Shown: positions 638 through 12,239 of the stretch, piece after piece | Position numbering within the stretch: the stretch's first letter is position 1 | How the letters are laid out: each line of letters starts with the position of its first letter | Assembly (NCBI GenBank): GCA_009838975.1 | Contig: VXQO01000156.1 | Span: 1-64,000, forward strand | Length of the DNA: 64,000 nt | Reading direction: 5' to 3' | DNA from: Gemmatimonadota bacterium | GTDB taxonomy: Bacteria > Gemmatimonadota > Gemmatimonadetes > Longimicrobiales > Gaopeijiaceae | Notes under the pieces: model-generated | The model's database searches: none | The model's input: the letters and a program-made list of their open reading frames with translations, nothing else | Told to the model about the DNA's origin: nothing | Position numbers and translations under genes: made by a program

Positions 638-1080
638 CCCGGGAGATCATTCTCGACACGGGCCCGCTGATTGCTCTTCTCAATTCGCGCGATCCTCACC
701 ACGCATGGGCGCGCGAGCAGTGGGCCGCGATTGAGCCCCCGTTGCTTTCCTGCGAGGCGGTGTTGGTCGAGGCGTGTTTTCTCGCGCGGCGTCTCACGCC
801 GGGGGGCCAGAGCAGAGTACTCGACTTCGTCCGGCGCGGGGCCCTCGACCTGTCGTTTTCGCTCTCGGACGAGATTGATGCAGTGGACCGCCTTGTCAGG
901 AAGTATCGCGACATCCCCATGTCGCTCGCGGATGCATGCCTGGTCCGGATGTCCGAGCTGCACCACGCCAGTCCGGTCCTCACCCTGGACCGAGACTTCA
1001 CGATCTATCGCAGGAGCCGGAGGCAGCGGATTCCGCTTCTTTCTCCCGGCGGCGATCCATGTCAGCCGACGCGCGGGTAG
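634..1080 (+). CDS. vapC: PIN-domain ribonuclease toxin (VapC family)
   Basis: This 148-residue PIN-domain protein starts at GTG 634, overlapping the antitoxin stop. Acidic residues expected of the Mg2+ site are visible: ILDTGPLIALL near the N-terminus, the Glu in VLVEACFLA, DACLVRM, and LDRDF near the C-terminus. PIN toxins of this type cleave tRNA or rRNA when the antitoxin is degraded. The length is normal and no active-site acid is missing, so the module looks functional, unlike the HigA fragment next to it. Confidence 0.87.
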   Translation: MTREIILDTGPLIALLNSRDPHHAWAREQWAAIEPPLLSCEAVLVEACFLARRLTPGGQSRVLDFVRRGALDLSFSLSDEIDAVDRLVRKYRDIPMSLADACLVRMSELHHASPVLTLDRDFTIYRRSRRQRIPLLSPGGDPCQPTRG

Positions 1081-1094
1081 ACTGCGATCGCCCC

Positions 1095-2423
1095 CTACCC
1101 CTTCTCCCTCAACTCCAGCGGCGGCCTCCATTCCTCCACGCCCGGCAGACGCCGGCCCCAGGTGTTGCCGTATGGATCTCCCTTCCCCAGCAGGAACCGG
1201 ATCGCAAGCCGGTGGAGCATGTTCACTTTTGGAACGAAGCCGTGAAAGCCGGCCAGCCCGGACAGCGCCCGGTCGCGCAGTTCCCAGTAGCCCAGGTCGC
1301 CTGGCTTGACGCAGACGACGCGCGACTCGTCCATGAACGGAGGAATGGCACCTGCAAGCGGAACGGTGCCGTCGCCGGTGGCGCGCCTCGCCCTCTGGTC
1401 CTCCGAATCCCAGTCGTTTCGGCGCTCGGCCGAGCCAAGCAGGAAGCGAGGCCTTCCCCGCTCGTCGCGCCCGACCCTCAGCGCGACCCGCGTTTCCGCA
1501 TCGACACCCGCAATCACGAGCCAGTCTTCGTCGCGAACAAGGTCCCCACTGGACTCGTCATGGGCTCCTTCACCCGCCGTACCATCGCCGGTCGCCAGCC
1601 TCAACGCCGAGATCCGCTCACGGTGCGCCCTGGCCGTGTCGAGCATGTCCTTGAACAGATCCGCGCCGGCAACGTTCCAGCCACTGACCTGGTGCGTGAT
1701 CGTGCGGATCACGCTGGGCTGCCACGCGTCCGGGTGGAAGATGTCCGACTCCATGCCGTCCTCCACGACGAGCGCGCCGTCGAAGCTCGGCAGCAGGTGG
1801 TAGAGCGCCGGCGTCATCCGTGCCATGCGGCGTTCGCGGGCCCCACCGGAGTTGTCGCCGAGGTCGGCGGTGCCGGTGGCCAGCTTGAGAATCGCCTCGT
1901 GCGACCCCTGAAATGGCGACGCCAGGGTCACGACCTTGTTGACGGAGCCGCCGCCGTGCCGTTCGATGTAGCCCGCGATGATCAGCCCGCCCATCGAATG
2001 GCCGACCAGATTGACCGTCGGGTTGGCCGTGTAGTCCTCGTCGTCCCGGTAGTGCTTCAGCAACAGGGTCCGGTCGATGACCTCCTGGACGAACGCGGCC
2101 AGCCGTTCCTCGATCCGGTCCAGCGGCAACCGCCAGTCATAGCCGAAGGGAAATACCGGCGCGGGCTCATCTTCCTCACCGGCCAGACCGTCGCGCAGCT
2201 CCTCGGTCAGGTCCTCGTAGACAAGCGGGAAGGGACCGCCGGAAGAAACGCGGGCCGGCTCGAGAAGTTCGTAGCGCTGGTCCTCCGGATGCAGGGTGAT
2301 CCGGTCGAAGCGCTTGTTGCGTACCGCAGTCCAGACGGCTTCGGGCGGCAGCTCGTACTCGTCGTGCAGAACGGATGCCGTGATGCCGGGGATGACGATG
2401 GTCGGGGAGGTGGTGATGGGCAT
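1095..2423 (-). CDS. LCAT/PGAP1-like alpha/beta hydrolase
   Basis: This 442-residue alpha/beta hydrolase resembles the lecithin:cholesterol acyltransferase (PF02450) group. IVIPGITAS near the N-terminus forms the oxyanion strand, FPFGYDWRLP is the family's diagnostic block, and the nucleophile elbow is VGHSMGG with Ser143. TLASPFQGSHEA follows, as in triacylglycerol lipases. No signal peptide is visible, so it may act in the cytoplasm. The substrate is probably a lipid ester, but nothing in the sequence fixes it. It faces the VapC gene tail to tail with a 14-bp gap and lies 47 bp downstream of a small membrane protein gene on the same strand. Confidence 0.75.
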   Translation of the reverse strand: MPITTSPTIVIPGITASVLHDEYELPPEAVWTAVRNKRFDRITLHPEDQRYELLEPARVSSGGPFPLVYEDLTEELRDGLAGEEDEPAPVFPFGYDWRLPLDRIEERLAAFVQEVIDRTLLLKHYRDDEDYTANPTVNLVGHSMGGLIIAGYIERHGGGSVNKVVTLASPFQGSHEAILKLATGTADLGDNSGGARERRMARMTPALYHLLPSFDGALVVEDGMESDIFHPDAWQPSVIRTITHQVSGWNVAGADLFKDMLDTARAHRERISALRLATGDGTAGEGAHDESSGDLVRDEDWLVIAGVDAETRVALRVGRDERGRPRFLLGSAERRNDWDSEDQRARRATGDGTVPLAGAIPPFMDESRVVCVKPGDLGYWELRDRALSGLAGFHGFVPKVNMLHRLAIRFLLGKGDPYGNTWGRRLPGVEEWRPPLELREKG

Positions 2424-2470
2424 TGGGGGACTCTTGATGAAGGAGTTGTCAGCGCGGGTGCTCGGTCCGC

Positions 2471-2842
2471 CTACTTCGGCCGGTCGTTGTTACCGCTGTC
2501 GCGGCCCTTGTCCTTCCCCTCCCCGGCCCGGGAGCCGAACCAGAACCCGACGATCGGGCCGATTACGGCGACGATGTACGCGAACACGTCCTCGGCCCGG
2601 TCGAATTGACCCGTAGCAAGGAAGGTGATGATCATGCTCGCCGCGAGGATCGCGAAGGTCCACGCCATGATGTGCGTGATGATCGGCTGAACCATCTCCT
2701 TGCGGAAAACGGTCTCAAACGCATTCGCGTCGCCGCTGGCCGAGCTGCTTTTGACCATTCGCTGGACAAACCATCCCAGCGCGACAACAAGTAACACGAG
2801 GGTGGTCAGAATCGGCCACCATTCGCGGAGCCATTCGTTCAT
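2471..2842 (-). CDS. small membrane protein of unknown function
   Basis: This 123-residue protein has an N-terminal transmembrane helix (about residues 10-28), two further hydrophobic helices (about 58-76 and 85-103) and a charged, lysine- and aspartate-rich tail. I do not recognise a family. It lies 47 bp upstream of the LCAT-like hydrolase on the same strand and may be cotranscribed, possibly anchoring or assisting that enzyme. That link is inference only. Confidence 0.65.
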   Translation of the reverse strand: MNEWLREWWPILTTLVLLVVALGWFVQRMVKSSSASGDANAFETVFRKEMVQPIITHIMAWTFAILAASMIITFLATGQFDRAEDVFAYIVAVIGPIVGFWFGSRAGEGKDKGRDSGNNDRPK

Positions 2843-3003
2843 GGGGTCTCTCCTGCGTATCGCCTGGATGCCACTGTCATTTCAAAGGTACACACTGACG
2901 ACGATCGGGTCGGGCGGCAAGTTGTCGGGGTCCCAACGGCACCATGCCAACTATATTCAAGGCCCCTTCCCCCTCTCAGCCCCTTCCAGATCCGCCAAAC
3001 CCC

Positions 3004-4398
3004 ATGTCCGACACCCGAACGATGCCGTCCGACCAGGACGTCCGCGACATTATCGAGAAGGACAGGAAGCACCTCTGGCACCATCTGTTCCAGCACAGCG
3101 TGTTCGAGACGCAGGATCCGCAGGTCTTTGTGGAAGGAGAGGGCGCTCGCGTTAGGGACATCCACGGGAATTGGTACCTCGACGGCGCGTCGGGCGGCGT
3201 CTGGTGCGTCAACGTCGGTTACGGGCGGGAGAGCATCGCGAAGGCGGTGTACGAGCAGCTCCGACGCCTGCCGTACTATGCGGGCGTTGCCGGCACCGTG
3301 CCGGCGGCCCAATACGCGAGCGCGCTGGCTCAGTGGCTGCCCGAGCTCGACCGCCTCTACTTCGCCAACAGCGGCTCGGAGGCCAACGAGAAGGCGATCA
3401 AGATGGTGCGTCAGATCGCGCACCAGCATGGAACCGGGAAGTACAAGGTCCTCTACCGCGACCGCGACTATCACGGGACTACCATCGGCTGCCTGGCGGC
3501 CAGCGGACAGGAGGAGCGCAAGGATGCGTACGGGCCGTTCCCCGACGGGTTCGCGGCGATTCCCCACGCGATGTGCTATCGCTGCCCGTTCGACAGGACC
3601 TATCCGGACTGCGACGTGGAGTGTGCGCGCGCACTGGAGGACGCCATCGAGGCCGAGGGACCGGACACGGTGGGCGGCGTCATTCTCGAACCGATCACCG
3701 CCGGCGGCGGCATCATCCCACCGGTCGCGGAATACTACGGGATCGTCCGCGACATCTGCGACAGCTACGGTGTCGTTCTGATTATCGACGAAGTCGTCTG
3801 CGGCTTCGGGCGGACCGGGACGATGTTCGGGTATCAGCACTACGACTTCGTACCCGACATTGTCACGATGGCCAAGGGGCTGGCCAGTTCCTACGCGCCG
3901 ATCTCGGCGGTTGCCGTGCGCGGCGATGTCTTCGACGCCTTTCTGCAGGATCCGAGCGACAAATACGGCTACTTCCGCGACATCAGCACCTACGGCGGAT
4001 GCACGGCGGGCTTCGCCGCGGCCCTTGAGAACCTGCGCATCATCGAGGAAGAGAACCTGATCGAGAACAGCCGCGTGATGGGCGAGTACCTGCTGGACAG
4101 TCTGCGCGCGCTGTCCGACCACCGGAACGTCGGCGACGTGCGCGGAAAAGGCCTGTTTGCCGGCGTCGAACTCGTAAAGGACAAGACCTCGAAGACGCCG
4201 GTGAGCGAGGACGTGATGGCTGCGGTCGTGAAGAAGGCCGCCGACGAGGGCGTCCTGGTGGGCAAGACCACGCGGAGCGTCCCGGGCTTGAACAACACGA
4301 TCAACGTGGCCCCGCCGCTGATCGTCACGAAGGCGGACATCGACGAGCTGGTGGACGCGGTGAAGGCCGGCATCGAGCACGGCTGCCGGGGTCTCTGA
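3004..4398 (+). CDS. class III PLP-dependent aminotransferase, taurine/omega-amino acid:pyruvate type
   Basis: This 464-residue fold-type I, class III aminotransferase has the N-terminal block KDRKHLWHHLFQH and GVWCVNVGYG, as in taurine:pyruvate and beta-alanine:pyruvate transaminases. ANSGSEANEKAIK contacts the cofactor phosphate, IIDEVVCGFGRTG carries the Asp that binds the pyridine nitrogen, and TMAKG holds the Schiff-base lysine (Lys291). ATG 3004 was chosen because family members begin near there; ATG 2944 would add 20 proline-rich residues. The symporter gene follows after 16 bp, so amino acid uptake and transamination are probably coupled. The amino donor is not determined by sequence. 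Confidence 0.85.
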   Translation: MSDTRTMPSDQDVRDIIEKDRKHLWHHLFQHSVFETQDPQVFVEGEGARVRDIHGNWYLDGASGGVWCVNVGYGRESIAKAVYEQLRRLPYYAGVAGTVPAAQYASALAQWLPELDRLYFANSGSEANEKAIKMVRQIAHQHGTGKYKVLYRDRDYHGTTIGCLAASGQEERKDAYGPFPDGFAAIPHAMCYRCPFDRTYPDCDVECARALEDAIEAEGPDTVGGVILEPITAGGGIIPPVAEYYGIVRDICDSYGVVLIIDEVVCGFGRTGTMFGYQHYDFVPDIVTMAKGLASSYAPISAVAVRGDVFDAFLQDPSDKYGYFRDISTYGGCTAGFAAALENLRIIEEENLIENSRVMGEYLLDSLRALSDHRNVGDVRGKGLFAGVELVKDKTSKTPVSEDVMAAVVKKAADEGVLVGKTTRSVPGLNNTINVAPPLIVTKADIDELVDAVKAGIEHGCRGL

Positions 4399-4414
4399 GG
4401 ACAGGTCCGCCGGA

Positions 4415-5848
4415 ATGGATTTCGACGAGCGAATCAATCAGCTGATGCAGCCGGTTACGGACGCCGTCGCCGGCTTCATCTTCTTCGCCGTGCCGATTGC
4501 GGGCGCCCAGGTGCCCCTCATCGTGGCGTGGCTGATCGCCGGCGGCGTGTTCTTCACCCTCTACCTGCGCTTCATCAACGTGCGCGGCTTCAAGCACGCG
4601 CTGGACCTGGTCAGGGGCCGCTACACCGATCCTTCCCAGCCGGGCGAGGTCACGCCCTTCCAGGCGCTGGCGACCGCCGTATCGGGCACGGTCGGCATCG
4701 GGAACATCGCGGGCGTGGCGGTGGCGATCTCCCTGGGCGGACCCGGAGCCACGCTCTGGCTGATCATCGCCGGACTGCTCGGTATGAGCACCAAGTTCGC
4801 CGAGTGCACCCTGGCCGTGAAATACCGTCGCACCCACGCGGACGGCTCGGTCAGCGGCGGTCCCATGTACTATCTGCAGCGCGGCCTGGAGCTGCGGAAC
4901 CTGCCCCGGGTCGGCCGCGGACTGGGAATGTTCTACGCCGCCGCCATGGTTTTCGGCTGTCTCGGAATCGGCAACATGTTCCAGTCCAACCAGGCCGCCG
5001 CCATTCTCATCGAGGTGACGGGAGCCGCCGACAGCTTCTTCAGCGACAAGGCGTGGCTGCTGGGAATCTTCATGGCCGTCGCCGTCGCGATGGTCATCGT
5101 CGGCGGCATCAGGAGCATCGCGCGGGTCACCTCCCGGCTGGTGCCCTTCATGGCGGTGCTCTACGTCCTGTCGGCCCTGGCGATCATCGGCATCAACGCC
5201 GAGCGGCTGCCGGCCGCCATCGTCCAGATCTGGCAGGGCGCGTTCTCGCCGGATAGCGTCGGCGGAGGAATGATCGGCGTCATGATCATCGGATTCCGGC
5301 GCGCGGTCTTCTCCAACGAAGCCGGCCTCGGGTCCGCCGCAATCGCCCACTCGGCGGTGCGAACGGACGAACCCTGCACGGAGGGCTTCGTCAGCCTGCT
5401 CGAGCCGTTCATCGACACGGTGGTCATCTGCACCATGACGGCGCTGGTCATCATCACGACGATCTACGATCCCGCGCTCGCCGACACCGGCATCACCGGC
5501 ATCGAAATGACCAAGACGGCGTTTGAGAGCACGTTGTCGTGGTCCCCGGTGCCGCTCTCGGTCGCCGCCGTGATGTTCGCCTTCTCGACCATGATCTCGT
5601 GGAGCTACTACGGCCTTAAAGCCCTCACGTACCTGACCGGCCAGCACCGACCGGTCGAGACCGGGTTCAAGCTCTTCTTCTGCGGCTTCGTGGTGCTGGG
5701 CGCCAGCATCAATCTCGGGGCGCTGATCGATCTCTCCGACGCGATGATCTACGTGGTCGCGATCCCCAATCTCATGGGACTGTACCTGCTCGCACCTGCG
5801 TTGAGGCGCGAGGTGCTCTCGTACCGGGAGCGGCTCGGGCGGTATTGA
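4415..5848 (+). CDS. AGCS-family sodium:alanine/glycine symporter
   Basis: This 477-residue polytopic transporter of the alanine/glycine:cation symporter family has about 10-11 hydrophobic helices. The signature GTVGIGNIAGVAVAI follows the first helices, and GGPGA and FSNEAGLGSAAIAHS are further family blocks. It imports alanine, glycine or related amino acids with Na+. It lies 16 bp behind the aminotransferase and has its own ATG. If the aminotransferase uses pyruvate it yields alanine, so the transporter could supply the donor or exchange the product. Confidence 0.9.
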   Translation: MDFDERINQLMQPVTDAVAGFIFFAVPIAGAQVPLIVAWLIAGGVFFTLYLRFINVRGFKHALDLVRGRYTDPSQPGEVTPFQALATAVSGTVGIGNIAGVAVAISLGGPGATLWLIIAGLLGMSTKFAECTLAVKYRRTHADGSVSGGPMYYLQRGLELRNLPRVGRGLGMFYAAAMVFGCLGIGNMFQSNQAAAILIEVTGAADSFFSDKAWLLGIFMAVAVAMVIVGGIRSIARVTSRLVPFMAVLYVLSALAIIGINAERLPAAIVQIWQGAFSPDSVGGGMIGVMIIGFRRAVFSNEAGLGSAAIAHSAVRTDEPCTEGFVSLLEPFIDTVVICTMTALVIITTIYDPALADTGITGIEMTKTAFESTLSWSPVPLSVAAVMFAFSTMISWSYYGLKALTYLTGQHRPVETGFKLFFCGFVVLGASINLGALIDLSDAMIYVVAIPNLMGLYLLAPALRREVLSYRERLGRY

Positions 5849-5867
5849 CGCCGGTCGCGCACCGAAC

Positions 5868-6920
5868 CTACCGCGTCGTCCCCACCCCCCGATCATTCCG
5901 CGCCAGCACCCGGTCGCCACCCTCGAACACGAACGGCACCGACCGGTTGTCGGGATCCCAGAGGTCGCGGTGCGTCTGCACCTGGAGATGGAGGTGCGCC
6001 ATGGTCGTATTGCCGGAGTTGCCGACCAGGGCCAGCGGATCGCCCTTCCGCACCCGGTCCCCCTCGTTGACCTGGAGCGTCCCGTGCCGCAGATGCGCGA
6101 GGACGACAAAAAGTCCGGTTTCGAGCTCGATGACAACCACGTTCCCGGCCGCGTCCGCGGGATCGGTCACGAAGTTCGCGCCCTCCGCATCCTCCATCCT
6201 GTCCTCTGCGATGACCACGATACCGTCCACGGGCGATACCAGTGGCTGCTCCCAACTGTAGACCGACGCGTTGCCCGTCCCGTCGGTGAAGATCCGGCCG
6301 TCGTCGAGCCGCACGAGGTCGAGGGCGAACCGCTGGTTGTAGGCCGAGAGATGGTGGTTTTGCAGGGGACTGGGTCCGCCTTGCAAGACGAGCCAGTCAC
6401 CCTCGAAGGGCGGAGCGATCTGCACGACATCGGCCGCGCCATCCCGGAAACCCCCGCCCCCAAACGCGCGCCCCAGATCGAACGCCAGGACCAGGGCGCC
6501 CGCCACCATGACGAGGGTGGGCCCGGGGTTGGTCCGGCGCGGGGCGACGAACGAAGCCGCGACCCGCAGCACGGAGATGACGATCACGGCCGCGATCAGA
6601 GGCGTCATCTCGGCCGAGCGCGGGAAGACGGTCACGCACGCGACGCCGGCCATCGCCCAGAAACTCGCGCGCCCGACCGCTTGCAGAAGTTGGGACCGAT
6701 GGTCGCGCCTGCCCGGTTCACGGAGCAGCTCCAGCTGCAGGCGTCGCTTCCACGCCAGCCAGCTGCGACTCGCGATCGCCCAGACTAGGCCGAGCAGCAG
6801 CACGACCGCCAGCGCCTGGTGGCTGTAGAGGCCGACGATACGGAGGGAGAAGAGGGCAGCGAGGGCAAGGAGGGTGAGGAGCGCGGTGATGATTTGGCGG
6901 GTTGGTGTGGCTTGTGTCAT
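5868..6920 (-). CDS. membrane-anchored M23 (LytM-type) peptidase
   Basis: About 350 residues. The N-terminal third carries several hydrophobic helices. The C-terminal 170 residues form a LytM/peptidase M23 domain: a His-Asp pair in HHLSAYNQRFALDLVRLDDG, SPVDGIVV, and the HLHLQV motif that supplies the other zinc ligands. Such enzymes cleave peptidoglycan crosslinks or act as lysostaphin-like regulators. ATG 6920 gives a protein starting just before the first helix; ATG 6953 is an alternative. It converges on the symporter gene and diverges from the split propeller gene. Confidence 0.78.
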   Translation of the reverse strand: MTQATPTRQIITALLTLLALAALFSLRIVGLYSHQALAVVLLLGLVWAIASRSWLAWKRRLQLELLREPGRRDHRSQLLQAVGRASFWAMAGVACVTVFPRSAEMTPLIAAVIVISVLRVAASFVAPRRTNPGPTLVMVAGALVLAFDLGRAFGGGGFRDGAADVVQIAPPFEGDWLVLQGGPSPLQNHHLSAYNQRFALDLVRLDDGRIFTDGTGNASVYSWEQPLVSPVDGIVVIAEDRMEDAEGANFVTDPADAAGNVVVIELETGLFVVLAHLRHGTLQVNEGDRVRKGDPLALVGNSGNTTMAHLHLQVQTHRDLWDPDNRSVPFVFEGGDRVLARNDRGVGTTR

Positions 6921-7229
6921 GGCTTTCGCACCAGCGTCTCCAGGGTATCTCATCACGATTGCACCCCGGAGTTCCGGGTATAGGCGATTTCCATCCCACC
7001 CCTGCCTCCCACAACGCTCGCTCCGGCCACGCCGACGATCACCGTTCGAAGGAACCGTGTCATGAAGGAACTCCTCTTGACGGAAGTGAGGGCGGATTGT
7101 GCCATCGGCGCCCTGCCGCACGAAACATGCCACCTCACTCGCGCGCATATTAGTGGGATACGGACGGGTCTGGCCGCCAGGCACGTCCTCTGGAGAGGGC
7201 ACACCCTGCGCAACCGGGAGACAATCAGC

Positions 7230-7392
7230 ATGAGACTGGCCGCCTACCCGATTATCGCCACACTGCTGGCCACCCCCGCCGTCGCTCAGGACCGGCCGCT
7301 GACCGCGGACGTGACCGAGGTGTACCGCGTGGGCGGCGTGAACTCGGAGGAGTGGGCGTTCTTCGGGCCTGCATTGCAGCCGGGCTTCGATG
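7230..7392 (+). pseudogene. 5' fragment of a beta-propeller gene split by a transposon
   Basis: ATG 7230 follows a GGGAG ribosome-binding site at 7216. The fragment encodes a signal peptide (MRLAAYPIIATLLATPAVAQ) and the first strand of a 6-bladed beta-propeller, TEVYRVGGVNSEEW, ending FDG exactly where the transposon begins. The rest of the gene resumes at 11095. Removing the element plus one copy of the target duplication restores one frame of 435 codons reading FDGAGNLVVLDAF across the join. As it stands, translation runs about 13 residues into the element and stops near 7431. Confidence 0.85.
7385..7392 (+). repeat. left target-site duplication of the transposon
   Basis: CTTCGATG lies directly outside the left inverted repeat and is repeated exactly at 11087-11094 outside the right end. 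An 8-bp duplication is what IS1595-family transposases normally generate. Confidence 0.92.
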
Positions 7393-7405
7393 GGGGACTA
7401 TATAG
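7393..7405 (+). repeat. left terminal inverted repeat
   Basis: GGGGACTATATAG matches the reverse complement of 11074-11086 at all 13 positions. Just inside it, GGTCG-CTAGA-CGACC (7405-7419) can form a short hairpin that the right end lacks. Confidence 0.9.
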
Positions 7406-7429
7406 GTCGCTAGACGACCGTAGGCGATC

Positions 7430-7672
7430 CTAAGGAGTGGGAGGCTTTCGGTCCCGACGCACCTGCCCGTCCTTGCGGTCCGTCGGCCTGGGGGGAGGCT
7501 CCCTGCGGATGGGCCGTAGCAGCGCCTTGGCCAACTCTTCGGGGGTCGCGCCCGCGAACTCGTTCGGCTTCCTGTCCACGGGGTCCACCTCTCTTTCCTC
7601 GTCGTCTTTCCAGTGCTCGCCTGGTCGGGAGCGCGGAGCGTCAGCGCCGCGTCGATCAGTGCGGCTGCCCAT
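7430..7672 (-). CDS. small passenger protein of unknown function
   Basis: Up to 80 residues. It is highly charged, with the recognisable core PNEFAGATPEELAKALLRPI followed by a proline- and arginine-rich tail. ATG 7672 lacks a clear ribosome-binding site; GTG 7588, preceded by GAGGAAAGAGAG, would give a 53-residue protein and is the more convincing start. It sits at the left end of the transposon and reads outward. No function can be assigned. A DNA-binding or transposition-accessory role is conceivable but unsupported. Confidence 0.5.
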   Translation of the reverse strand: MGSRTDRRGADAPRSRPGEHWKDDEEREVDPVDRKPNEFAGATPEELAKALLRPIRREPPPRPTDRKDGQVRRDRKPPTP

Positions 7673-7725
7673 GCTTGGGAATCTATGGCGTGAGTCGTCA
7701 ATCGCAAGGGGGCGAACATCTTAGG

Positions 7726-8514
7726 CTAGAACTTCCCCGACAGGTCGATGTCAGCTTCCGGGCAGACCACTCGGAGCCATTTCTGAACCGGCATGTGACG
7801 GTCGTGGTGCAGTTCTCCTGTCACCTGGCAGCCTCCGAGAACGTCCCAATACATCCGAATACCCGGATAGTCGTGCGTGCCGCTCACGCGGCCGGACGCA
7901 ACCGTGTCCGGCCGGAAGAACCGGCGGTCCACCAAAATGACATGCGTCTCGCCGTCGCTGAACGTACGGTCGAGCGCGACCGGACCCGTGGCGAATGTCC
8001 ACTTGTCGCGGTGGCAGTGGTTGCCGGAATCGTAGTAGCAGCCGCTCAGGTATCCCGCCCCGCTCACTGCGGCGTCGTAGTTGGCGATGTGCTCGATCTC
8101 CCGCTCTGGAATGTACGGGCCGATCGTGAACCAGTCGCCGAAACCGACCTTGGAAGGGCTCCAGAGACAGGACTTGCAGACCCACTCCGAGTCTCCCCAG
8201 CCGTCCACCCGAGGCTGCTCGAAGGCGATGCGGTAGGTGCCGAAAGGCAGCCGGTCCACGACAACCACCGTGTCGGTGACCGGGTACCGAGAGGCGACGA
8301 TGGTGCCGATGGACTGCTCTTCTTGCTCCCTGCTCTGGAGCATGATGAGGGCGCTGTCAAAGTACTGCGCGCGCAAGTCTACGGGCAGCGGAACGACCAA
8401 CTTCACGGTCACCGTGCCGTAAGTCGGCAGGGCTGGCTCGGGCTCATCCGGTGCGACCGGACTGCACGACAGCGCGGCAAGTATACTGAGGACCGGAACG
8501 AATTGCTTCCGCAT
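7726..8514 (-). CDS. passenger lipoprotein of unknown function
   Basis: This 262-residue protein has a short basic N-terminus (MRKQF), a hydrophobic stretch and AALSCSPV, a plausible though imperfect lipobox with Cys17. The mature part begins with an acidic linker, then TYGTVTVKLVVPLP, a strand pattern like a carboxypeptidase-regulatory or Ig-like domain. Six further cysteines (in VCKSC, GCYYD, HCHRD, GGCQV, VVCPE) suggest an extracytoplasmic fold with disulfides. No catalytic motif was recognised. It lies inside the transposon and is transcribed toward its left end. Confidence 0.65.
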   Translation of the reverse strand: MRKQFVPVLSILAALSCSPVAPDEPEPALPTYGTVTVKLVVPLPVDLRAQYFDSALIMLQSREQEEQSIGTIVASRYPVTDTVVVVDRLPFGTYRIAFEQPRVDGWGDSEWVCKSCLWSPSKVGFGDWFTIGPYIPEREIEHIANYDAAVSGAGYLSGCYYDSGNHCHRDKWTFATGPVALDRTFSDGETHVILVDRRFFRPDTVASGRVSGTHDYPGIRMYWDVLGGCQVTGELHHDRHMPVQKWLRVVCPEADIDLSGKF

Positions 8515-8874
8515 GGCCGAGGCTTTCCCCCATGCCCCCGGTCCCGCGCCGACGCTCGCCGAAAGACACGGGGACGTGATTGGCGGTTGCTACGACCTCG
8601 GCAGCGAGAGTCTTTGCCCCCCAGCAAGCCGGGCCGTTGTCACAACCATTCGAGGAAAGAACAGTCCCGCGTATTCGCCTGTGGCCCTAGGCGGGAGCGA
8701 CCCGCCTGAGCGTGCAGAGGCTCTCGTATTCGGCAGGCGACCCGGCCGGATTCGGCCTGGTAGCCTCGAACAGTTGTGACGCCCGAATCGTAACCGGCGA
8801 GTTCGTGAGTCGCAAGAAAAGCAGCCGTTTCTTCCACCCCGGCTGAATTGGGGTTATATTCGGGGCCCGGAACG

Positions 8875-8932
8875 AAAAAAGGGGAGAGCGACCCTCCCAC
8901 CGCCTAGCAAGCTGGCGAGGGTCACTCTCCCC
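8875..8932 (-). terminator. intrinsic terminator inside the transposon
   Basis: Two 16-base arms, 8881-8896 and 8917-8932, pair with a single mismatch. On the minus strand the hairpin is followed directly by six T (A8875-A8880 on the plus strand), the canonical rho-independent layout. No minus-strand coding gene ends here, which suggests that a non-coding transcript is being terminated or that the downstream lipoprotein gene is insulated. Confidence 0.75.
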
Positions 8933-9107
8933 CCGAGGACACGAAAGGAGTGAGCCCCTGCATCCACCGCGCCGGCCCTGGCCGGGCAACGAGGAATGGC
9001 CTCCGATCATCACCCGATGATCCGGCCTCCTTCCGGGGTGTCCGCTTGGAAGCTAACCAGCGGGCGCACCGGGAGCAAACCACTAGCACATCATCCCATC
9101 TAGATGG
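8881..9107 (-). ncRNA. possible structured RNA, or structured leader of the 9126 gene
   Basis: The interval has no convincing gene but holds several stems: CCATCTAGATGG (9096-9107), GATCATC/GATGATC enclosed by GGCC/GGCC (8998-9027), CCGGCC/GGCCGG (8972-8985) and the terminator hairpin above. Read on the minus strand this is a compact RNA of roughly 200 nt ending at an intrinsic terminator. Read on the plus strand it would be a structured 5' leader of the Ntn-hydrolase gene. No promoter was identified for either reading. From 8515 to 8874 I see nothing coding. Confidence 0.3.
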
Positions 9108-9125
9108 AGGGAGGGCAAGCAGCAA

Positions 9126-9839
9126 ATGAGCATGGTAGCAACCGTCAGAACCCCTGCTGGAATAGCTCTTGTCGGCGATACGCTGACGAGCATTACGAGA
9201 ACTCAAGTCAAGCCAGACGGCACTAAGACTGAGCAGATGTATCCGGCATCCCACACGGCCACGAAGGTATTCGAGTTCTTGGAGCGCTTTGGCGTTGGAG
9301 CGACCGGCCAGCCGTTCGTTGACGGGGCTCCCAACGGTGTGCCCCGATCCATTGGGTCACTCATCCGACGCGCCAACAAGTCGCTTGCAGCCATCAAGGG
9401 CAAACCGATCAAGACCTGTGCGAACCGTCTGGCCGAGTTCATACACCAGCATGTAGGCCAGACTTCGGGAATGATCGAGCTGCTCGTATGTGGCTACCAG
9501 AACGACGTTCCTGTCAGTGTCACTGCGCGGATTACCAAAGATGGCGTATCGCTTGAGGAGCCGAATCCTGGATTGGGAATCGCAGTTATCGGGGAAGGGT
9601 TTGTCGGACAAGCGCTGTGGGATTTGGCGACAGCCCGGAAGACCGAGCCAGCAGTCCTCTTCTGTTCTTTGCGCGACGCGATCGACCATGGTACGTTTCT
9701 CGTCGCTGTCACGCGGGACTACCAGCGGTTCTTTCAAGAACCGCAGACGGTAGGAGGCGGGATCGATGTCGCTACCATTACCCGACAGGAGGAATTCACA
9801 TGGGTGAAGCGAAGCAGCCACGTTCAGCCGGAAAAATGA
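9126..9839 (+). CDS. proteasome-fold Ntn hydrolase carried by the transposon
   Basis: This 237-residue protein follows a strong GGAGGGAGGG ribosome-binding site. The N-terminus MSMVATVRTPAGIALVGD aligns without gaps to the start of HslV and proteasome beta subunits: if Met1 is removed, Ser2 falls on the catalytic Thr1, and VR and GD18 fall on HslV VR and GD17. HTATKVFEF supplies a candidate for the Lys33 equivalent (Lys47), followed by GVGATGQP where the family has a glycine-rich loop. It could be a Ser-nucleophile protease or amidase, or a non-catalytic relative. It overlaps a small downstream gene, suggesting a two-gene cargo operon. Confidence 0.65.
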   Translation: MSMVATVRTPAGIALVGDTLTSITRTQVKPDGTKTEQMYPASHTATKVFEFLERFGVGATGQPFVDGAPNGVPRSIGSLIRRANKSLAAIKGKPIKTCANRLAEFIHQHVGQTSGMIELLVCGYQNDVPVSVTARITKDGVSLEEPNPGLGIAVIGEGFVGQALWDLATARKTEPAVLFCSLRDAIDHGTFLVAVTRDYQRFFQEPQTVGGGIDVATITRQEEFTWVKRSSHVQPEK

Positions 9840-9988
9840 AGATCGGCCCCAGTGTCCAGGACTCTCAGTCGATTAGCTTCACTACCAGTGGAGGGCTCAC
9901 GCAAGAACGCGAGTTGCCACCTGAAACACCTTCGCAGCGTTCAGCGAGTTTTACTCCGAAAATGACTGGGATTACCGTCCGCTCCTAG
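9800..9988 (+). CDS. 62-residue partner of the proteasome-like protein
   Basis: ATG 9800 lies 8 bases after an ideal AGGAGG, inside the last 40 bases of the proteasome-like gene, so it is very probably translated. The product is polar, serine- and threonine-rich, with no hydrophobic helix (MGEAKQPRSAGKMKIGPSVQ at the N-terminus). It may be disordered. It could be a substrate, tag or regulator of its neighbour; no known family was recognised. It overlaps the end of the convergent transposase gene by four bases. Confidence 0.6.
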   Translation: MGEAKQPRSAGKMKIGPSVQDSQSISFTTSGGLTQERELPPETPSQRSASFTPKMTGITVRS

Positions 9989-10917
9989 GCCACCAACTCC
10001 CGGTAGGTCAGCCTCCGGCCGACCAGGCCGGCAGCTACCGCGCCCATCCGGTCCAGCGTACCTAGCTCCCGCATGTTCTGACGCCCGCAGAACTCGTCGA
10101 TGTACCGCTGAAGGTGCTTCGGGCTGAGGTAGTGGAAGGTGCCCATATAGGCCCGCTTGAGGATCGACCAGAAGCCCTCGATCCCGTTCGTGTGCACGTC
10201 ACCCCGCACGTACTCGCCCCGGCTGTGGGCGACCGAGGCGTGCGTGTAGCCGGTCATCGTCCTGTAGGCCCATGCGCCGTCGGAGTAGACCGTGGATCCG
10301 GGCTCTGCGGTGGACTCCACGAACTCGCGCAGCACGGGGGCCGGGGGAGTGCCGGTGCCGACTACACGGGCCGAGACGCGCTTCGTGTGCCGGTTCTTCG
10401 CGCCGACGACGGCGGTCTTGCCGACCGGGCCGCGACCCAGCTTGCTCTTGACCCGCTTGTTCCGCTCCTTGCCGCCGAAGTAGGTCTCGTCAACCTCGAC
10501 CGTGCCGCGCATCATCGGCTGGCCCGGCTTCCATGCCTGCCGGAGCCGGTGCAGCATGAACCAGGCCGTGGTCTGCGTGACGCCGATGCGCCCCGCCAGC
10601 CGGGTGCTCGGCACCGACTTGACGCTCGTGGCGAGGATGTAGACCGCGTAGGCCCACTTGCGGAGCGGCACCTTCGAGCGTTCCAGCGCAGTACCCGTGC
10701 GGACGGAGAAGTACTTCCGGCAGTCGGGGCACCAGTAGGGCATCGGCTTCTCGTTCGGCACCACCTTCGTGCGGGTGCCGCCGCAGTGCCCGCAGCACCG
10801 TTCCTTCGGCCATACCTGGCCCTCGAACCATCGGCGGGCTGACTGCTCGTCGGGGAACATCTCGGCCAGGGCCAGTAACGAAACTTCCGTCGCCATCTTT
10901 CCTGCTTCCTGCTTCAA
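9985..10917 (-). CDS. IS1595-family (ISXO2-like) DDE transposase
   Basis: 310 residues. An N-terminal zinc ribbon (Cys41/42, Cys45, Cys63, Cys66) binds DNA, followed by a helix-turn-helix-like region (RLAGRIGVTQTTAWFMLHRL). The catalytic core is an ISXO2 DDE domain: Asp143 in VEVDETYFGGKE, Asp213 in YSDGAWAY and Asn244/Glu247 in HTNGIEGFWSILKR. All the acids are present, so the enzyme is probably active. It reads toward the cargo from the right end. The 168 bases between its start and the right terminus hold an inverted GCGGCAGGTG/CACCTGCCGC pair and presumably its promoter. Confidence 0.93.
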   Translation of the reverse strand: MKQEAGKMATEVSLLALAEMFPDEQSARRWFEGQVWPKERCCGHCGGTRTKVVPNEKPMPYWCPDCRKYFSVRTGTALERSKVPLRKWAYAVYILATSVKSVPSTRLAGRIGVTQTTAWFMLHRLRQAWKPGQPMMRGTVEVDETYFGGKERNKRVKSKLGRGPVGKTAVVGAKNRHTKRVSARVVGTGTPPAPVLREFVESTAEPGSTVYSDGAWAYRTMTGYTHASVAHSRGEYVRGDVHTNGIEGFWSILKRAYMGTFHYLSPKHLQRYIDEFCGRQNMRELGTLDRMGAVAAGLVGRRLTYRELVA

Positions 10918-11073
10918 GGATTCTTCGTTCCAGCTGGTAAGGAACGGCGGAGCGGCAGGTGGCGGGAAAACGACGCCTTCTTACACCGTTTTCTCTAACC
11001 AGGAGGTGTACGCTCCCGCACCTGCCGCCCGCCTTATCCGAATCTATGTAGGCTCAATCAGTTGTCAAGTTAG

Positions 11074-11086
11074 CTATATAGTCCCC
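11074..11086 (+). repeat. right terminal inverted repeat
   Basis: CTATATAGTCCCC is the exact complement of the left end at 7393-7405. Confidence 0.9.
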
Positions 11087-11094
11087 CTTCGATG
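11087..11094 (+). repeat. right target-site duplication
   Basis: This is the second copy of CTTCGATG. It belongs to the interrupted gene, and joining it to the left flank restores the reading frame. Confidence 0.92.
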
Positions 11095-12239
11095 GCGCGG
11101 GCAACCTGGTGGTCCTGGATGCGTTCAACAAGCGGGTCGTCGTGGTCGGACCCGATGGCCGGCTTGTGCGCGTGGTCGGGCGCGAAGGAGAGGGGCCGGG
11201 CGAGTTTCGGCAGGTACAGGCCCTCGCGGTTTGGCGCGACGGCCGCTTTGCGGTGCCCGACACGGAGCATTCCGCGATCCAGGTATTTGCCCCGGACGGC
11301 GAACTCGACCGGTTCATCAGGTGGCCCGGCGAGGCCAGAACTCTGTCCAGTGCCCTCCGTCACAGGGAGATTCGGGCCGATCCGTTGGGCGACCGACTGA
11401 TCGCACAGGGTGTCGAAGGCGTGCTGGTCGAGATGGCCAACTTCATGTATCGGCTCAGGGGCGATCCGGAAGAGGACCCGCGGGGGGTCGATGACCGCGC
11501 GCTCGAGACGCTGGACTTCGCCGGGGACGTGATCGCGGCGCGACCGATCCTTCAGGGATGGAGGGCACCTCGTCCCGAACCCCTGTTGTCCGCCACCCAA
11601 CTGGAGGACTGGCCGAAGGTGGTCGCGTCGCTGCAGGATCGCTACTTCGAGCCTGGGTTCCACTGGGACGTGCTGCCCGACGGCACCATCGCCCACTCCG
11701 ACTCCTCGGCGTACGAAATCAGGCTCGCCCGTCCAGATGGGTCCGTGATCGACGTGCTCAGGCGGCCGCTTTTGCCGGAGGCGGTCTCCGAACGGATGCA
11801 GCGGGCCACGATCGCCTTCCACATCCAACGCCTGGAGGAGCGGTTGGCGAGGGGGCCCTCTTCAGCCGGGGTCTTGCCGCCCCGAGATCCCGAGGAAAGC
11901 CGGCAGAGGATTCGCGATCGCGCGTTCTACCACGAAGTCCCCGTGGTGCACGGGATAGGGGCCACATGGGACGGCGGACTGTGGATCCACCGGCGCGCCG
12001 ATGTTCCGTGGGAGGATGAAGGCCCGATCGACGTCTTCAACGCGGATCGCGAGTACCTGGGGACACTGCCATCCGGCGAACCGGCGATGCCCGTCGCGTT
12101 CGGGCCGGATGGTCTGGTCGTGCACCTGGAGCGCGATGAGCTGGACGTGCCGACGCTGGTGGTGAGTCGCGTGGTGGTCGGAGGCAGGTATCGACCGGGC
12201 AGGGCCTACCGAGACAGCGAAAGCTCGACCAGTTCGTAG
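11095..12239 (+). pseudogene. 3' fragment of the split 6-bladed beta-propeller gene
   Basis: This is the remainder of the propeller that starts at 7230. Repeated blade motifs are visible: GNLVVLDAFNKRVVVVGPDG, then GREGEGPGEF, DGRFAVPDT, WDGGLWIHRR, FGPDGLVVHLERDE. The middle section carries a charged helix-rich insertion (near 11780-11950) that also occurs in the propellers at 17544 and 47972. Without the signal peptide this part cannot be exported even if translated from an internal start such as GTG 11109. Its end overlaps the convergent lipoprotein gene by 34 bp. Confidence 0.85.

Follow-up and report, generated by a model that had tools for sequence, protein, structure and literature searches.

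Introduction

Why should a short transposon carry a gene for a proteasome-like protein, and with it a second gene for a product of only 62 residues? The question is raised by a locus in the 64,000-nucleotide stretch of Gemmatimonadota DNA analysed here (contig VXQO01000156.1 of assembly GCA_009838975.1, positions 1 to 64,000), hereafter the window. The proteasome-like family itself is already known, and a survey of its homologs found no genomic context suggestive of function (PMC8665760). Our preferred answer, to which we assign a probability of roughly 55%, is that the two genes form a conflict module, in which a Ser-type proteasome-like enzyme and a dedicated short ligand travel on a 3.7-kb IS1595-type transposon. 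The proposal builds on how the genes are laid out, the ends of the transposon and its clean insertion, a predicted fold, the conservation of four residues and of the small protein, and the recurrence of the small gene, all of which are shown below; the activity of the enzyme, the role of the ligand and the defence function are inferred.

The gene pair

The features of the pair are as follows.

9126..9839, + strand: proteasome-like Ntn protein, 237 aa, with Ser2, Asp18, Lys47 and Gly61
9787..9792, + strand: AGGAGG, the small gene's ribosome-binding site, located within the large gene
9800..9988, + strand: small polar partner protein, 62 aa, with a 40-nt overlap with the large gene

The two-gene arrangement with a proteasome-like product is confirmed. 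The large product has MSMVATVRTPAGIALVGD as its N-terminus, and the orthologs, which begin MSLV and MSLA, support the start codon at 9126. An overlapping, co-directional layout in which one gene is small is a feature of toxin-antitoxin or addiction modules, and it is present here.

The transposon carrying the pair

The sequence-only reading had the pair moving as cargo of an IS1595-type element, and this was substantiated: the ends are inverted repeats, 8 bp of target are duplicated, and two relatives have the site uninterrupted.

7385..7392, no strand: left copy of the 8-bp target duplication CTTCGATG, flanking the element
7393..7418, + strand: left terminal inverted repeat of the IS1595-type element, 21/26 matches to the right end
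7430..7672, - strand: polar ORF within the element, 80 aa, with 43 bp conserved in other genomes of the genus
7726..8514, - strand: lipoprotein-like ORF, 262 aa, further cargo, no match in Pfam or PHROG
9985..10917, - strand: IS1595-family transposase, 310 aa (NF033547, PF12762)
11061..11086, - strand: right terminal inverted repeat, pairing with the left end
11087..11094, no strand: right copy of the target duplication CTTCGATG, flanking the element
11095..12239, + strand: 3' remainder of the propeller-like gene that the insertion interrupts; the gene is intact in G059 and G247

The element spans 3,694 bp (7393-11086), and its transposase matched NF033547 (E 8.5e-56) and PF12762 (E 2.5e-36). 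The right end, GGGGACTATATAGCTAACTTGAC on the minus strand, stops at 11086; elsewhere in the window it is best matched at 7392/7393 (21/26, next best 16), which is the sole match on the left. A left end just upstream of the large gene had been considered and was discarded, the left end having been located at 7393. The 5' part of the interrupted gene, whose product we take to be propeller-like, stops at the left duplication, and deletion of 7393-11086 together with one copy of the 8-mer leaves a 491-codon open frame through this gene. In two genomes of the same genus (G059 and G247) the uninterrupted target site aligned over 248/248 bases without gaps at 94% identity. The ends, the duplication, which has the 8-bp size typical of the IS1595 family, and the intact site in relatives together establish the insertion as a discrete 3,694-bp unit. 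Both genes of the pair lie within it, along with the 80-aa ORF and the 262-aa ORF, the latter presumably a lipoprotein gene from its signal-like N-terminus. No recognised defence gene was found in the window's own element.

Several further observations were made on the element and its site. A stretch of 40-43 bp in the 80-aa ORF (7507-7549) is found again, 85-88% identical, in three further genomes of the genus, one of the three recurrences sitting inside another IS1595-type element. The noncoding-looking segment at 8624-8746, between the lipoprotein-like and proteasome-like genes, has 71-88% matches in several genomes of the genus. The gene interrupted by the transposon (11109-12239) belongs to a large family, with 71 matches in its own genome.

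A second IS1595-type transposon, flanked by TCTGCAGC, was seen in a genus-mate (L130, G305:C28:10500-18500, approximately 1763-6176). Its transposase is of the same family, and its centre holds a DNA methylase gene (PF01555, E 1.3e-38) with a coupled 204-aa ORF for which no Pfam match was found. The middle of these elements looks like an interchangeable slot, filled in this second case by a restriction-modification-like pair.

Orthologs and wider relatives

Full-length relatives of the 237-aa protein were found in only 4 of 395 genomes of the phylum (its own genome, G305, G045 and G224). Those of G045 and G224 are identical, leaving three distinct Ser-type proteins, the other two being 42% and 35% identical to the window protein. 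Matches to the C-terminus only were found in 11 further genomes of the 395. The relatives examined from this second set are mostly of about 310-440 aa, start with MTIAI... or MTAEV... and have the same catalytic pattern with Thr; one of them (L007) has a broken N-terminal half. When a profile was made of the Ser branch, it aligned across 217 columns with the shorter Thr proteins (E 6e-15, a single comparison) and across the C-terminal 63 columns with the longer ones (E 4e-8). The possibility that the resemblance is confined to the start of the protein was discarded, being contradicted by the full-length profile match and by the structural model described below.

The C-terminus of the large protein matches phrog_5990, a family of unknown function (E 6e-5), and the longer Thr-type relatives match the same family along their length. 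By their length, insertions and occurrence in phages, we infer that these longer relatives are the PMI-4 proteins of Fuchs et al. 2021. Membership of the PMI group was defined by CLANS clustering with PMI sequences at P 1e-10 and by multiple insertions (PMC8665760). In our 15-row alignment the large protein lacks the long stretches of the PMI-4-like rows and so fails the insertion criterion; it is therefore placed closest to PMI but outside the group proper. Within the proteasome-like superfamily it forms a new branch, compact and of Ser type, with the PMI group as its nearest neighbour.

Other searches returned little. Pfam, NCBIfam and PADLOC named neither protein, giving only weak, sub-threshold Pfam rows, and no meaningful match was found among PDB sequences with single-protein phmmer or the three-ortholog profile. 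No relative was found in viral contigs with the single protein, the ortholog alignment or the shorter PMI-like set as query, nor by tblastn in plasmid and phage records. Within the databases searched, the Ser-type branch is thus limited to four genomes and three distinct proteins.

Predicted fold and active-site residues

The alignment given to AlphaFold2 consisted of 15 rows, i.e. the three distinct orthologs and 12 PMI-4-like proteins. The resulting model (pLDDT 86.4, pTM 0.83) has a predicted proteasome-beta fold. Foldseek matched it to 79 PDB chains at E values up to 0.001, and the 50 matches listed were all proteasome subunits. The best VIA-align was with yeast beta5 (Z 19.9, rmsd 2.7-3.7 A, 185-190 residues), and a Rhodococcus proteasome subunit gave Z 19.1 and rmsd 2.4 A over 182 residues. 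The model matches solved proteasome subunits along its whole length, and its residue 2 pairs with proteasome residue 1 (Thr1) in most VIA-align rows. A control model built from the three orthologs alone was poor (pLDDT 46.6), although its 50 best rows were still all proteasome chains, with Z up to 8.4; the confident predicted fold needs the PMI-4 rows in its alignment. The proteasome-type Ntn fold first proposed from the letters alone has a strong structural match.

The residues agree with the predicted fold. Ser2, Asp18, Lys47 and Gly61 are invariant in the three distinct orthologs, and the last three are also invariant in all 15 alignment rows. Residue 2 is Thr in each of the 12 PMI-4-like rows, as well as in the further PMI-like proteins aligned, and so remains within the Ser, Thr or Cys expected of a nucleophile in the sequence-only reading. 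Neither result named in that reading as refuting it, lack of an Ntn-fold match or a residue 2 not kept as Ser, Thr or Cys, was observed. The 15-row profile also found archaeal proteasome beta subunits by sequence alone (Sulfolobus acidocaldarius, E 5.2e-5; Thermoplasma acidophilum, about 6e-4); in the alignment with the latter, position 2 of the query falls on chain residue 1, Asp18 on residue 17 and the Lys on Lys33. Ser2 had initially been placed at Thr1, and Asp18 at Asp17, by comparison with HslV, and both placements were borne out here against proteasome beta subunits, HslV not being part of the comparison.

In the proteasome-like family, the mature residue 1 is Thr or Ser, equivalents of Asp17, Lys33 and Gly47 are present, and a beta-sandwich core carries flanking helices; enzymatic activity is not required by the authors of this definition (PMC8665760). 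The first criterion is satisfied by Ser2, on the presumption that the initial Met is removed, the second by Asp18, Lys47 and Gly61, and the sandwich with flanking helices is present in the model.

These data bear on whether the protein is an enzyme at all. It might be a catalytically dead proteasome relative that serves as a binding or scaffold protein, as the change from Thr to Ser could suggest, together with the alteration of the segment around Asp166/Ser169. We consider this the least probable of the alternatives, since Ser2, Asp18, Lys47 and Gly61 are among the positions that stay invariant at 35-42% identity and would be expected to be lost in a dead protein.

A further alternative is a general self-compartmentalising protease, forming HslV- or BPH-like rings and captured by the transposon by chance, with the small gene encoding an assembly or adaptor factor. 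The beta-subunit-like fold with helices flanking the sandwich would suit such a protein, and some PMI relatives lie among ordinary genes. The distribution, however, is patchy (4/395 genomes), the host already has an HslV-type (PF00227) gene at C120, and no ATPase gene was seen in the element's ORF list, the element alone having been inspected for a partner such as HslU would be for HslV. We therefore regard chance capture as unlikely, if the strongest of the competing accounts.

Conservation and recurrence of the small gene

The 62-residue gene had been described as well initiated. The AGGAGG motif lies 7 nt before its ATG, and at all three ortholog loci the start of the small gene precedes the large gene's stop codon by 34-37 nt. 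The small proteins of the window and the nearest ortholog locus (L032) gave an alignment score of 59, against 24 +/- 4.8 for shuffles, none of which reached 59 in 3000. When 18 frame pairs were compared between these two loci, the annotated frame alone was conserved (59, next best 37); the gene is accordingly taken as real, and a chance ORF was discarded as an explanation. The small proteins of L032 and the third locus, L033, are related at z 10.4, and the direct comparison of window and L033 was not significant (z 1.5).

The window small protein ends TGITVRS. Pup is a small protein ending GGE or GGQ, and membership of a pupylation system was discarded on this ground. The C-terminus is also central to another reading, in which a connectase-like ligase or amidase would form an acyl intermediate with the small protein and join it to a target, the small protein being a tag. 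Connectase is itself a proteasome-like ligase (PMC8665760), and a stretch ending TGI(T/S)(V/L)R is conserved in two of the three orthologs. Yet L033 lacks this motif or has it displaced, no common C-terminus is shared by small proteins of other branches, and no ligase-type target is known. Tagging of this kind appears improbable to us, more so than chance capture of a protease.

The pairing extends beyond the Ser branch. Among Gemmatimonadota PMI-type loci, a short downstream ORF was present in 11 of 11 (3 Ser-type, 8 Thr-type) compared with 9 of 79 control genes. The ORFs found were of 55-96 aa, had a ribosome-binding motif and lay no more than 60 nt from the stop codon; the rules allowed ATG or GTG starts and 30-100 aa, with controls of at least 250 aa and a third-position GC filter, and differed slightly from those used for viral contigs. 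In the latter, 17 of 21 loci had such an ORF compared with 7 of 62 controls; the 21 were taken from 36 loci, 15 being excluded by eye as near-copies or truncated, and a tally under laxer rules had been looked at before this one. Fisher values were 6.6e-9 for the viral contigs and 4.0e-9 for the Gemmatimonadota loci, and these overstate independence because the loci are related to each other.

On plasmids, an Enterococcus faecium record has an overlapping 56-aa gene as a PGAP-annotated CDS. Of six plasmid loci analysed by script, five (L108, L109, L110, L112 and L114) have an ORF of 35-67 aa close by, and no small ORF was found close by in L111. The two-gene pair is kept in the orthologs, and an equivalent recurs among PMI-type loci more widely. 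Since the small proteins vary from branch to branch, a shared origin is not demonstrated for them.

Genomic neighbourhoods

Neighbouring genes were scanned with PADLOC for chosen genes only and without a control set. The ortholog at L021 lies in a defence island, with GmrSD-type restriction, McrC, an HmaA-scoring helicase (in two ORFs), an OLD/HEC-04-like ATPase, an HmaB-like methylase and an integrase as neighbours. At L023 (G053:C31:22000-34000, 660-10761), a PMI-4-like gene with its own small gene lies inside an Hma (DUF499, BREX-related) run, the same-strand order being HmaC, a 160-aa product, PMI, the small protein, PDC-M19A, PDC-M19B and HmaB. A type IIG restriction enzyme is encoded one gene away from the PMI-type gene at L029, and an LmuA/DUF4297-like gene lies about 3 kb away at L022. 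By eye, the neighbours at L025-L028 are ordinary chromosomal genes. The defence or stability role that had been thought possible thus gained circumstantial support from L021, L023, L029 and L022, and no proof.

At an ortholog locus in G045 (L019, 6060-7373), a 5'-truncated IS1595 transposase, a retropepsin-like aspartyl protease and a DUF5678-like gene were observed 0.8-2 kb upstream, the protease and the DUF5678-like gene with Pfam matches that fall short of the curated cut-offs.

Plasmid neighbourhoods were examined for 8 of 10 matches, one record being without annotation. Multiubiquitin and ThiF genes occur within a few kb of the PMI-4-like gene in three Rhizobium records and one Mesorhizobium record (L109, L111, L112 and L113). 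A ClpP-like gene is also nearby in the three Rhizobium records, which may represent one inherited arrangement. No multiubiquitin or ThiF gene was found near the PMI-4-like gene in the Ruegeria, Pantoea and E. faecium plasmid records.

Proposed role of the pair

In the conflict module that we favour, the two genes, carried by the 3.7-kb IS1595-type transposon, would be translationally coupled. Removal of Met would expose Ser2 as the nucleophile, in the way of Thr1 in proteasomes, and the large protein would be a peptidase or a peptide-transferring enzyme. Its small and probably unstructured partner, made from the same message, may be a dedicated ligand acting as inhibitor, pseudo-substrate or substrate. 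The pair would then serve genetic conflict, as an anti-phage defence or a stability (addiction) module, and this, we propose, explains its carriage by mobile DNA and its presence in defence islands.

In favour of the conflict module are the fold and residues, the mobility, the coupled small gene, the wider pairing, the neighbours at L021, L023 and L029 and the methylase-bearing element of L130. Against it stand the absence of activity data, the altered Asp166/Ser169 region, the ordinary neighbours at L025-L028 and the weak model from orthologs alone, and likewise the lack of a defence gene in its own element, the z of 1.5 between the window and L033 small proteins and the uncontrolled neighbour scans.

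A broader reading can be offered only tentatively, and we would sooner bet against it than for it. The PMI-type homologs, including the Ser branch, may, rather than being orphan proteases, be fixed two-gene modules of an enzyme and a short, mostly disordered ligand, moving among transposons, prophages and plasmids as interchangeable anti-phage effector or control units. It is suggested because one PMI gene lies inside the Hma/DUF499 run and others adjoin bacterial multiubiquitin genes. If true, it would mean that prokaryotes employ the proteasome fold in immunity, paired with its own small regulator.

As far as the literature was searched, three points are new: a compact Ser-type branch on an IS1595 transposon, the association of PMI-type genes with a coupled small gene, and the location of one PMI gene within a run of Hma (DUF499, BREX-related) genes. 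Nothing beyond the 2021 survey was found on proteasome-like proteins in phage defence, and no report of their pairing with a small gene was found, as judged from literature listings. The portion of a 2026 BREX/DUF499 paper available to us (PMC12839542, main text) contains no proteasom-, Ntn, HslV or Anbu, and in the part seen of a 2026 proteasome review (PMC13022661) the survey is cited in the reference list only. The pair gives a first clue to the role of orphan proteasome relatives, and with a recurring coupled small gene and defence neighbours their function becomes a testable two-gene question. It would, further, be a case of the proteasome fold put to new use on a simple transposon, with Ser as the nucleophile.

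Comparison with known systems

The 20S proteasome beta subunit shares with the window protein the predicted fold over the whole chain and the placement of residue 2 on Thr1; identity, however, is 11-18% in most VIA-align rows (21% in one), there is no propeptide, and ring assembly is not established. HslV has a two-layer Ntn fold with an N-terminal nucleophile, a likeness at the level of the family; the window protein gave no match to PF00227, the HslV criterion, in a Pfam search, and the host's separate gene at C120 is of that type.

Connectase is likewise proteasome-like in fold, and the window protein has a possible small protein partner, but Connectase is archaeal and has a helical insertion (PMC8665760), and ligase activity of the window protein is not established. 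The PMI group (Fuchs, Alva and Lupas 2021, PMC8665760) shares the Thr/Ser-Asp-Lys-Gly pattern, the C-terminal VGGxIDVA...F.W segment and the downstream small gene, while the window protein differs in having Ser and not Thr, in its 237 aa without long insertions and in its location on an IS1595-type transposon.

The Pup-proteasome operon also encodes a short polar protein beside a proteasome-type gene; in the window the small gene is downstream, and its product does not end in the GGE or GGQ of Pup. Finally, IS1595-family transposons with passenger genes have the same family of DDE transposase, inverted ends and 8-bp duplication, and the element of the window is unlike them in that its passenger is a proteasome-like pair.
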